From Thermophilibacter immobilis (GTDB lineage Bacteria > Actinomycetota > Coriobacteriia > Coriobacteriales > Atopobiaceae): a stretch of DNA of 64,000 nucleotides. This document shows, piece by piece, positions 5,653 through 17,949 of the stretch. The notes beneath the pieces were generated by a model. The model saw only the letters and a program-made list of their open reading frames with translations, made no database searches and had not been told where the DNA came from. Both the position numbers and the translations under genes were made by a program. Numbering within the stretch: position 1 is the stretch's first letter; each line of letters opens with the position of its first letter. The DNA lies in contig NZ_CP063767.1 in NCBI RefSeq assembly GCF_015277515.1, forward strand, positions 620,001-684,000, given 5' to 3'.

Positions 5653-6501
5653 ATGACCAAGGAAAGAGGCGGACGCGGCCCTCTTGTGGCGGGCGCTGCA
5701 ATCGTGATATTTGGTATTACTCTTTTTCTGTATAAAGTCTTTCCTTGGCTGACGTCCAGCACGTCGCAGGGGGCATCCCAAGGGGGAGCTCCCGCATCTG
5801 AGGAATCCCAGACGGACGATTCTCATCAGGAGCCGTCCTCTACCTACGCGGTGAGCGTTCCCTTTGATCTCGTGGGGATTCCGATGCCCGAAAGCGGGCC
5901 CTTTGCAGACGGTGACTACTCTGGCTCGGGTTCCTTTCTCTTTGACGCCGCCTGGGAATGGGACGGGACGATGCGCATGAGCGTCTCCAAGCCGGTCCTG
6001 TACGACTCGCTCGAGGAGGCGGGCTATGTTGATGACGGGTCGTTCTCGAACCAGGGAAACTTCGAGGGGTGCAGGGTCGTCGTGGTGGACGTGACGGTAG
6101 AAAACGTCGATGCAACCTGCAAGCAGAGCGTGTTGGAGTACACCGGTGTCCCGGCGTTTAACACGGCGATGTTTCATCTGGAGTCGTCACTGGCCTACGG
6201 CGTGTATGCCGATGCCAACTTGATCTCGGCACCGCGCGTGGAGGGCATCTCCTATGGATCTGAAAAGGCGCGAAGCTATACGTGGGTCGAGCCGGGGGGG
6301 GGCAGCATCACCGTTCGCATGGGCTATTTCGTGACGCATGACGAGTCCTCACATGACGCGGCATCGACGATTAGGAAGATTGACGACACCGGGCTCGACC
6401 CCGATTACGTCCTCGTTCTCGAGGCGGCCGGGTGGCGCAACGGCGCACCCGTGGTCTCGCTGGGCAAAGCGACTGCCCCCGAGGAGAGGGGAGCGCAATG
6501 A
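5653..6501 (+). CDS. Single-pass extracellular protein of the ABC locus
   Basis: The 282-residue protein has one N-terminal membrane anchor (LVAGAAIVIFGITLFLYKVF, residues 10-30), a Ser/Gln/Glu-rich linker, and a predicted beta-sandwich extracellular domain with alternating strands (GCRVVVVDVTVENVD). That pattern is shared with DUF4352/DUF5028-like accessory proteins; the assignment is an inference. A related but shorter protein closes the locus (9651-10265), so the ABC genes are bracketed by two like proteins. The start has GGAGCTG upstream, and the gene overlaps the next by four bases (ATGA). No known function; possibly an immunity or substrate-capturing partner of the ABC transporter. Confidence 0.6.
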   Translation: MTKERGGRGPLVAGAAIVIFGITLFLYKVFPWLTSSTSQGASQGGAPASEESQTDDSHQEPSSTYAVSVPFDLVGIPMPESGPFADGDYSGSGSFLFDAAWEWDGTMRMSVSKPVLYDSLEEAGYVDDGSFSNQGNFEGCRVVVVDVTVENVDATCKQSVLEYTGVPAFNTAMFHLESSLAYGVYADANLISAPRVEGISYGSEKARSYTWVEPGGGSITVRMGYFVTHDESSHDAASTIRKIDDTGLDPDYVLVLEAAGWRNGAPVVSLGKATAPEERGAQ

Positions 6502-15394: not shown

Positions 15395-15646
15395 CTACAG
15401 CGCCTCGTGGAAGGTGCGTGAGATCACGTCGTCCTGCTGCTCCTTGGTGAGGGACGCGAACTTGACGGCGTAGCCGGAGACGCGGATGGTGAGCTGCGGG
15501 TACTTCTCGGGGTGGGCCTGCGCGTCAAGGAGCGTGTCGCGCGTGAACACGTTGACGTTGAGGTGATGGCCGCCCTCCTCGGCGTAGCCGTCTATCATGC
15601 TCACGAGGTTGTCGACCTGCTCGGGGGAGGCGTCGGAGGTCTTCAT
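15395..15646 (-). CDS. grcA: Separate glycyl-radical domain of pyruvate formate-lyase (GrcA-like)
   Basis: The 83-residue protein ends with [16 protein letters not shown], the glycyl-radical loop in which the glycine of SGYA becomes the radical site, and then [13 protein letters not shown], which matches the extreme C-terminus of ordinary pyruvate formate-lyases. E. coli GrcA (YfiD), about 127 residues, is a repair substitute with the same domain, used when oxygen cleaves the enzyme. Here, however, the large subunit has no such domain, so this protein is probably an obligate subunit. It lies between pflB (57 bases away) and pflA (2 bases away), strongly suggesting co-expression. Confidence 0.85.
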
Positions 15647-15703
15647 GGTGGTTCCTTTCTCGAGTGGCGGCGTCGGGTCGGGGCCCGGTGCCGAGAGTTC
15701 GGC

Positions 15704-17800
15704 CTAGCGGCAGCCGCAGTCGCCGCATGCGCCCGCCGGGTTCTCTATCTGAAGGTCGACGCCGAGGGCGTCGAGGTCGAGCTCGTCGAAGAGCACCGAG
15801 TCGGCCTTGCCGAGCGCGTCGGGGACGATGGAGAAGGTGTTGGAGATGCCGTCCTGCGCGTCGCCAAAGGGGAGCTTGGCCACGCTGGCGAGCGAGGCCA
15901 CGGCACCGTGGGTGTCTCGTCGGTGCATGGGGTTGGCTCCCGGGGCGAACGGCTCGCCTGCGCGTCGGCCGTCGGGCGTGTTGCCGGTCTTCTTGCCGTA
16001 GACGACGTTCGAGGTGATCGTGAGGATGGAGGTCGTGGGCACGGAGTCGCGGTAGGTGTCGTTCTCGCGCACGCAGGCCATGAACCGCTCGACGACGTCG
16101 TGGGCGATGCCGTCGACGCGGTCGTCGTCGTTGCCGTACCGGGGGGAGTCGCCCTCGATGACGTAGTCGGTGACCAGTCCGGTCTTGTCGCGCACCACGC
16201 GAACCCGGGCGTACTTGATGGCGGAGAGGGAGTCTGCGACCACGGAGAGCCCTGCGATGCCCGTGGCGAACCAGCGGTGGACGTGCTCGTCGTGCAAGGC
16301 CATCTGCAGCCGCTCGTAGCAGTACTTGTCGTGCATGTAGTGGATGACGTTGAGCGCGTTGACGTAGACGCCGGCCAGCCACGCCATCATGTCGCGGTAC
16401 TTGGCCACGACGTCGTCGTAGTCGAGGTAGTCACCCTCGACCGGCCGCAGGCGGGGGCCCACTTGCTCGCCGGTGACCTCGTCGCGCCCGCCGTTGATGG
16501 CGTACAGCAGGCACTTGGCCAGGTTGGCACGGGCACCGAAGAACTGCATCTCCTTGCCGATGCGCATCGAGGAGACGCAGCAGGCGATTGCGTAGTCGTC
16601 GCCGTGGTAGACGCGCATGAGGTCGTCGTTCTCGTACTGGATGGAGCTCGTGGCGATGGAGATGCGGGCGCAGTAGCGCTTGAAGGCCACGGGCAGGCGC
16701 GTCGACCAGAGCACCGTGAGGTTGGGCTCGGGCGAGGTGCCCATGTTCTCGAGGGTGCGCAGGAGGCGGAAGCTCGTCCTGGTGACCATCGAGCGCCCGT
16801 CGACGCCCATGCCGCCGATTGACTCGGTGACCCACTGCGGGTCGCCGGAGAACAGGTCGTTGTACTCCGGCGTGCGCGCGAACTTGATCATGCGGAGCTT
16901 CATGACGAGGTGGTCGACGATCTCCTGGGCTCCCTCCTCGGTGAGGGTCCCGGCCGCGAGGTCGCGCTCGGCGTAGACGTCGAGGAAGGCGGAGTTGCGA
17001 CCGATGGACATGGCTGCGCCGTTCTGCTCCTTGACGGCGGCGAGATATCCCAGGTAGAGCCACTGGACGGCCTCCTGGAAGGTGGCCGCAGGCCCAGAGA
17101 TGTCCAGGCCGTAGACCTCTCCGAGTCGCTTGAGCTCCCCCAGGGCGCGGATCTGCTCGGAGAGCTCCTCGCGGTGGCGGATGGTCTTCTCGCTCATGGT
17201 CTTCTGCGTGCCGGCCTTCTCGGCCCTCTTCTCGGCGATGAGGGCGTCGACGCCGTAGAGCGCCACGCGCCGGTAGTCGCCGATGATGCGCCCGCGCCCG
17301 TAGGCGTCGGGCAGGCCGGTGATGATGTGGGAGTGGCGGCAGGCGCGCATCTCGGGCGTGTAGGCGTCGAAGACGCCGGCGTTGTGGGTCTTGCGGTTGT
17401 GGGTGTAGAACTCGACGATCTGGGGGTCGACCTCGTAGCCGTTCTGCTCGCAGGCGGCCTGGGCCATGCGGATGCCGCCGTTGACCATGAGGGCGCGCTT
17501 GAGGGGCTTGTCGGTCTGCAGGCCCACGATCTTCTCGAGGGGCTGGTCGATGTAGCCGGCGGGGTGGCTCACGATCGTGGAGACGACCTTGGTGTCCATG
17601 CCCAGGACGCCGCCCGCCTCCTGCTCGGCGGAGAAGAGGTCCATGACCTCGTCCCAGAGCCTGGCGGTGTTCTCGGTGGGTCCGGCGAGAAACGACTCGT
17701 CGCCGTCGTAGGGGGTGTAGTTCCTCTGGATGAAGTCGCGGACGTCGATCTGGTGCTCCCAGCTACCGCCCGTAAAGCCCTGCCATGCCTGTTGGCTCAC
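15704..17800 (-). CDS. pflB: Pyruvate formate-lyase large subunit without glycyl-radical domain
   Basis: The 698-residue protein converts pyruvate and CoA to acetyl-CoA and formate. It keeps the family's hallmark regions: IDVRDFIQRNYTPYDGD, FLAGPTENTARLWDEVM, RIIGDYRRVALYGVD and the catalytic double cysteine in AIACCVSSMRIGKEM. It stops about 60 residues before a normal enzyme (about 750-760) would, ending ENPAGACGDCGCR in place of the glycyl-radical domain. The missing domain is encoded just downstream as a separate 83-residue protein, so the enzyme must work as a two-subunit complex. The CxxCxC tail is unusual. The start is ATG; upstream lies a region with inverted repeats and a separate terminator from the neighbouring gene. 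Confidence 0.93.
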   Translation of the reverse strand: MSQQAWQGFTGGSWEHQIDVRDFIQRNYTPYDGDESFLAGPTENTARLWDEVMDLFSAEQEAGGVLGMDTKVVSTIVSHPAGYIDQPLEKIVGLQTDKPLKRALMVNGGIRMAQAACEQNGYEVDPQIVEFYTHNRKTHNAGVFDAYTPEMRACRHSHIITGLPDAYGRGRIIGDYRRVALYGVDALIAEKRAEKAGTQKTMSEKTIRHREELSEQIRALGELKRLGEVYGLDISGPAATFQEAVQWLYLGYLAAVKEQNGAAMSIGRNSAFLDVYAERDLAAGTLTEEGAQEIVDHLVMKLRMIKFARTPEYNDLFSGDPQWVTESIGGMGVDGRSMVTRTSFRLLRTLENMGTSPEPNLTVLWSTRLPVAFKRYCARISIATSSIQYENDDLMRVYHGDDYAIACCVSSMRIGKEMQFFGARANLAKCLLYAINGGRDEVTGEQVGPRLRPVEGDYLDYDDVVAKYRDMMAWLAGVYVNALNVIHYMHDKYCYERLQMALHDEHVHRWFATGIAGLSVVADSLSAIKYARVRVVRDKTGLVTDYVIEGDSPRYGNDDDRVDGIAHDVVERFMACVRENDTYRDSVPTTSILTITSNVVYGKKTGNTPDGRRAGEPFAPGANPMHRRDTHGAVASLASVAKLPFGDAQDGISNTFSIVPDALGKADSVLFDELDLDALGVDLQIENPAGACGDCGCR

Positions 17801-17923: not shown

Positions 17924-17949
17924 ACACAACATCTTGTGTCTTGTGACAA
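17924..17949 (-). promoter_or_regulatory. Inverted repeat upstream of the pfl operon
   Basis: ACACAA-CATC-TTGTGT (17924-17939) is a perfect inverted repeat and is followed at once by TTGTGACAA (17941-17949). The TTGTG/CACAA half-sites resemble sites of redox regulators such as Rex or CRP/FNR-type proteins. It lies about 125-150 bases upstream of pflB. A second hairpin-forming repeat (GACGCCA-ACTAG-TGGCGTC, 17954-17972) is beside it. Confidence 0.45.

Follow-up and report, generated by a model that had tools for sequence, protein, structure and literature searches.

Among the sources of formate in gut fermenters, pyruvate formate-lyase (PFL) is an important one, and textbooks describe it as a single chain. 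The locus described here raises the question whether a PFL can also be permanently divided, with the catalytic cysteines on one polypeptide and the radical glycine on another, or whether such a pair of genes reflects a decaying enzyme next to a spare part, a stop codon that is read through, or a sequence error. It lies in a stretch of 64,000 nucleotides from Thermophilibacter immobilis (contig NZ_CP063767.1, positions 620,001 to 684,000), called the window in the following.

Results

Gene layout and profile matches

On the minus strand of the window, pflB is followed by grcA3 and then by pflA, and the ATG of grcA3 is preceded by AAAGGAA (Table 1). Judged by profile and residue matches, the encoded enzyme is a PFL by its parts and not a one-chain PFL. 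The PFL model TIGR01255, which has 744 positions, is shared out between two products, with positions 1-670 on PflB (above the curated cut-off, 1064 against 994.2 bits) and 664-744 on the 83-residue protein. Pfam Gly_radical is cut at about position 50, with 1-51 on PflB and 50-105 on the small protein. PflB retains the first half of that domain and lacks the helix, the beta-10 strand and the glycyl-radical loop, the last of which sits on the separate small protein. The original prediction, namely that the 698-residue PflB has the double Cys but no radical loop and that the missing domain is a gene of its own between pflB and pflA, is borne out on both points. What it had overlooked is that the small protein already has a name in NCBIfam, GrcA3: the 83-residue product scores above the cut-off of NF038360 (165.8 against 158 bits) and below those of GrcA TIGR04365 (103.8 against 170) and GrcA2 NF008341 (98.8 against 145).

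Table 1. Features of the divided PFL locus, in window positions
Feature	Position	Strand	Basis
pflB, large subunit, 698 aa	15704-17800	-	GTG start, TAG stop; TIGR01255 1064 bits
grcA3, glycyl-radical subunit, 83 aa	15395-15646	-	NF038360 165.8 bits; Gly_radical 50-105
pflA, radical-SAM activating enzyme, 272 aa	14574-15392	-	TIGR02493 237.8 against cut-off 231.75
Catalytic Cys pair, PflB residues 407-408 (E. coli C418/C419)	16577-16582	-	alignment
Acidic tail of PflB, replacing the link to the radical domain	15707-15805	-	sequence
Cys-rich end of PflB, CGDCGC	15710-15727	-	same-genus relatives mostly DCGCC
Codon of the expected radical glycine, GrcA3 Gly58 (RVSGYA)	15473-15475	-	read off the sequence

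At all 15 E. coli PFL positions that were looked up, the window carries the E. coli residue. The positions are given by E. coli number (one label was wrong), and R176, W333, C418, C419 and R435 belong to the active site. These five are identical in 124 of 124 aligned sequences besides that of E. coli, a count that takes in the window and near-copies and leaves out the truncated row L162; of the 15 positions, five are variable somewhere in the alignment.

As the two window genes are in frame, with grcA3 resuming 19 codons past the TAG stop of pflB, their read-through fusion was modelled with AlphaFold, the stop being read as Q (801 residues; pLDDT 76.7, pTM 0.81). Compared with E. coli PFL (2pfl), the model gave a Z of 43.0 and an rmsd of 2.5 over 723 residues, model residues 1-801 lying on chain residues 4-757; 1qhm, a PFL large-domain entry, gave a higher Z of 46.9, but over 591. 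The pLDDT fell below 50 in much of residues 593-721, the seam, and in the glycyl loop at 773-778. In this model, where the fused chain forces both parts together, the PflB and GrcA3 pieces jointly account for one PFL fold.

A perfect palindrome, ACACAACATCTTGTGT, lies at window positions 17924-17939, 123 nt upstream of the pflB start. The search for it gave one match with at most one mismatch, against a mean of 0.06 in shuffled sequence, where 5 of 100 shuffles had a match at all, and sites with 0-2 mismatches stand 118-129 nt upstream at 14 of the 24 loci L123-L146, as well as at L039. It resembles an NrdR box and is a candidate regulator site.

Relatives and genome surveys

A search of genome contigs with the large protein returned at least 587 stretches, at least 582 of them related, of which the best 80 loci were kept. 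In 77 of these the large gene is broken in the same way, and three are full-length. Since the same part is missing in 77 of the 80 nearest loci, faulty sequencing or assembly of the pflB end, the objection that the original prediction had raised against itself, is ruled out; as the sample was picked by similarity to the split enzyme, this proportion does not tell how frequent the break is among PFLs in general. The original prediction had also proposed looking in relatives for a small glycyl-radical gene adjoining the truncated PFL, and such an ORF lies downstream of the large gene in 75 of the 77 split loci among the best 80, while the other two (L057 and L096) stand at contig ends with 231 and 147 bases left. 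The best 80 loci come from Atopobiaceae, Collinsella, Lachnospiraceae, Oscillospiraceae/Ruminococcus, Erysipelotrichaceae, Spirochaetota and Gastranaerophilales. By these sequence matches, the split arrangement is common in Clostridia, which had been missed before, and is found in many gut bacteria.

In the survey of the window's family, where matches to PFL were accepted at E<=1e-100, 80 of 140 genomes gave a match: a split-type PFL is present in 51 (72-100% identity) and a full-length PFL in 30 (62-65%), the two types being sorted by identity and frame and two G105 rows being pieces of one gene. The split PFL is the sole match at this threshold in 50 of the 51 genomes that have it, some of them incomplete, and of the 140 genomes, that of the window (G000) is alone in having both types. 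GrcA3 exceeds its cut-off in 51 of the 140 genomes, 50 of which are split-PFL genomes, and in 0 of the 29 with a full-length PFL only, as a comparison of the two genome lists by hand revealed. G010 (57% complete) has a split PFL with a GrcA3 slightly below cut-off, and G109 (87% complete) has GrcA3 and no large-subunit match. The phylum sample gave a match in 16 of 246 genomes, G276 being one of the 16.

The second PFL of the window's genome is full-length, with a frame of 762 residues that is 64% identical (about C1:1138761-1141031, in L119), and is adjoined by a pflA-like ORF, recognized by eye. Also by eye, a probable Crp-family regulator lies beyond this ORF, and the opposite flank carries an ORF resembling a transposase. 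Of the eight places in this genome that match the glycyl-radical domain, three are accounted for by the two split-PFL halves and the full-length PFL; the other five lie in frames of 752-854 residues, and one of these resembles NrdD by eye.

Olsenella phocaeensis (L041) has two GrcA3 ORFs, at 527-1042 and 6082-6459 of its locus, about 5.4 kb apart. They are identical across the last 60 residues shown and apparently stem from a partial duplication, in a locus with ambiguous bases; the spacing in G044 is the same.

Phylogeny

When 97 large-subunit cores were placed in a quick maximum-likelihood tree with E. coli PflB as root, three changes between the split and the full-length state were required, counts of such changes giving no direction. 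The main group comprises 90 sequences, 87 split rows and three nested full-length sequences from Clostridia, with a support of 94, slightly below the program's star, and with long branches flagged. According to this tree, split PFLs mostly form one group, and the nested full-length sequences (L085, L090 and L091) probably go back to re-fusion. Apparently independent is the split in G276 (L164), a genome from another family of the phylum: its large chain, ending in ...QVANLVGLLDAGFVPGC, is broken later than that of the window and terminates in a single Cys, and a different 83-residue small protein is encoded 57 nt after the large gene. Across 85 loci, the distances of the large and small proteins are correlated (r 0.66; 0 of 2000 permutations as high), which could also come from shared ancestry alone.

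Cysteine-bearing tail and third protein

Two further traits, both new here and missed by the original prediction, concern the acidic tail of PflB and a third protein. Among the 87 split rows of the tree, the tail contains no Cys in 43 and two or more in 44, and never one. The median gap before grcA3 is 283 nt without tail Cys against 54 nt with them, a link that arises because the long gaps hold a gene, the third ORF. At 150 nt, a threshold picked post hoc, tail-Cys state and gap length agree in 81 of 85 rows; a sign test on four independent contrasts at starred branches was not significant (median p 0.625). An RNA element in the long gaps was considered and rejected: an Rfam scan of 14 long-gap loci gave nothing at gathering score, and the gaps hold the third ORF.

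A profile of 27 third proteins was run on six-frame ORFs of the fetched loci and detected 42, including the 27 from which it had been built. Within 78 split loci (the window and 77 others), two or more Cys are present in 77, borne either by the large-subunit tail (35 loci, window included) or by a third protein with its own gene, about 60-85 residues long (42 loci). L057 scored as both, and since its third hit was judged to be a contig-cut GrcA3, it is counted among the 35. At the remaining locus, L044 of Collinsella aerofaciens MCC370, the split PFL lacks both the tail Cys and the third protein, which shows that the Cys part is not strictly required. Tail Cys, at least two of them, are found at all 37 split loci of the family and the order (L123-L159), and no separate third gene shows among the profile matches listed for the 140 family genomes, which all fall within positions 2-34, the front half common to GrcA3 and PFL. 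No third protein was detected with the profile in six-frame ORFs at the three full-length loci nested in the main tree group.

Weak contacts of the profile with 10 of the 35 Cys tails (E from 2.7e-3 in L066 to 4.8e-2 in L046) were also recorded, and most of these ten end in an ACxxPTLFEGLD-like stretch, as the third protein does. For the ten, the matches suggest well that Cys tail and third protein are one module. The other 25 tails were unmatched, the window's included (no match at E<=1), and the likening of the window tail to the third protein is only an analogy.

As for the third protein itself, the helix and beta-10 strand of GrcA3 have their counterpart in its front half, IDDLVxMLDxxMxxGxGHxNV (hhalign probability 95.7 and E 9.5e-9 in a single comparison over 34 columns). 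The RVSGY glycyl loop is absent from the 27 aligned third proteins and a Cys motif comes after the front half instead; it aligns at the place of the GrcA3 RVSGYAV, which in so small an alignment of low identity is suggestive only. When four of the 42 third proteins were scanned, the NCBIfam GrcA3 model matched them mostly in the front half (E 3.4e-5, 0.0044, 0.018 and 0.075) and Pfam gave nothing credible; judging from these four members, the third protein of PFL operons is unnamed in Pfam and NCBIfam. Against PDB sequences, the profile gave nothing significant (best E 0.11). We propose that the third protein may be a placeholder for the site of the radical domain.

A second AlphaFold model, of the large and third proteins of Lacrimispora amygdalina (L059) with an alignment free of GrcA3 and full-length rows, was poorer than the fusion model (pLDDT 70.0, pTM 0.74). 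The third-protein helix at 695-712 has block means of 53-74, the remainder is mostly below 50 and no strand is assigned; the structural alignment with 2pfl stops at model residue 724, opposite residue 714, where confidence is low. The model hints weakly at a position of the third protein near PFL's own helix and beta-10.

Discussion

The PFL of the window is very probably a permanently divided polypeptide, PflB plus GrcA3, that works as one enzyme. The gene order, the complementary break, the conserved residues, the co-occurrence and the tree carry this case, from which we infer the assembly of PflB with GrcA3, activation on GrcA3, catalysis and the equivalence of tail and third protein. PflB would give the barrel, the double-Cys site and the substrate pocket, and GrcA3 the helix, the barrel-closing beta-10 strand and the glycyl loop. 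The two would assemble, PflA would install the radical on Gly58 of GrcA3, and the radical would then move on to the PflB Cys pair in the manner of a one-chain PFL. The Cys-bearing part would be a further recurrent component, carried here by the large tail and in many Clostridia by a third protein with a gene of its own, and either may take over a recognition or holding role.

With E. coli PflB the window enzyme shares the active-site residues, the fold of the modelled fusion and the pflA neighbour, but E. coli PflB is one chain of 759 residues, whereas the large chain of the window closes with a tail that is acidic and bears Cys. E. coli GrcA/YfiD is likewise a free-standing glycyl-radical domain with an SGYA loop; it differs in its length of 127 residues, in being encoded far from pflB and in lacking the NLVxxLDGY helix that GrcA3 has, and its N-terminal half is disordered (PMC8683613). 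It also serves a PFL that was made complete, whereas the PflB of GrcA3 is made without the entire region so that it contains neither a strand nor a loop to be displaced; in the natural split each element occurs once, and no displacement would be needed. In benzylsuccinate synthase and hydroxyphenylacetate decarboxylase, the radical domain is part of the large chain and small subunits bind [4Fe-4S]; these small Cys-bearing partners are likened here by description alone.

Experiments with truncated E. coli PFL are reported in PMC8683613. PFL cut at 695 was poorly activated with YfiD or its C-terminal half, the radical amounting to 0.5 uM for tPFL:YfiD and 2.7 uM for tPFL:truncYfiD against 15.9 uM for cPFL:YfiD, and binding of YfiD to tPFL was not measurable; once activated, the cut enzyme matched the wild type in activity. 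According to the same paper, the YfiD strand duplicates PFL beta-10 and PFL residues 696-733 seem to be a recognition element. A PflB G734A strain formed formate with GrcA and none without it, as reported in PMC12338860. As to the products, PMC7520715 includes formic acid in its table for four Olsenella species and only acetate for O. lakotia, formate not being among the acids that the method for the latter names; for Atopobium vaginae, PMC12208373 gives a decrease of formate by about 90% with hypophosphite. A split PFL, or GrcA3 as part of a split enzyme, is not described among the open-licence papers listed, and the excerpts of two of gut genomes, PMC9403272 and PMC7478625, discuss PFL and leave a split unmentioned.

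A purpose compatible with the divided enzyme, possible though doubtful, would be oxygen tolerance, burnt GrcA3 being swapped without PflB being remade. In PFL, O2 cuts the chain at the radical glycine (PMC8683613). It follows that only the small chain should be cut in a split enzyme, and the second GrcA3 ORF of O. phocaeensis is in favour of such an exchange. However, organisms with a split PFL are, as far as is known, gut or otherwise strict anaerobes, the large and small genes are near each other, giving no hint of a separate supply of the small protein, and a neutral split fixed by interdependence would look identical.

Far less probable is that GrcA3 is an E. coli-type spare part for another full-length PFL, the truncated PflB being a decaying pseudo-enzyme. 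The name of the NCBIfam family NF038360 (model kind 'exception'), autonomous glycyl radical cofactor, implies a spare part, and the full-length PFL of the window's genome could be the repair target. The gene evidence, in contrast, implies a subunit: no other PFL was found at E<=1e-100 in 50 of the 51 family genomes with a split PFL, which most likely makes it a standing multi-protein PFL, the small gene follows in 75 of 77 split loci among the best 80, and the active-site residues of PflB stay conserved, contrary to decay. The claim that GrcA3 must be a stable partner is supported as far as a standing pair is concerned, whose genes stay together, and is weakened in the window's own genome, where the second, full-length pfl that would count against it is indeed present; no second match at E<=1e-100 came up in the 50 other split-PFL genomes of the family. 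The split enzyme need therefore not be the sole PFL of this organism and could be secondary there.

That the split is only apparent, read-through or frameshifting yielding a full-length chain, fits the in-frame grcA3 of the window and deserves next to no credence, since the relative frames of pflB and grcA3 divide 27/33/24 among 84 split loci, the window being one of them, and further stops occur in 6 of the 12 in-frame loci with a gap below 200 nt, which rules it out as a conserved mechanism, and since the gaps range from -17 to 982 nt and another gene intervenes at 42 loci.

For the divided enzyme, we also considered a more speculative and rather unlikely role of the Cys part in what would be a three-part PFL of many gut anaerobes. 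The third protein or a Cys tail of the window type would be a decoy radical domain, its loop exchanged for Cys-x(4-8)-Cys, usually followed by x2-Pro, which plugs the open beta-10 slot or the Cys-Cys site and yields to GrcA3. It would act as long as GrcA3 is missing, burnt or still to be activated, and its thiols could serve as redox sensor or hydrogen donor. The odds of this are lowered by the window tail, which has no match to the third-protein profile. If true, the radical part of this glycyl radical enzyme would be an exchangeable cartridge, and the decoy a safety plug built into the enzyme.

A natural split would be a clean system for studying how activase and glycine meet, how the radical domain leaves and re-enters the barrel, and whether O2-burnt parts are exchanged, questions that the work on E. 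coli approached with engineered truncations. For gut genomes, a truncated PflB beside an 'autonomous cofactor' gene would accordingly be read as the subunits of one enzyme.
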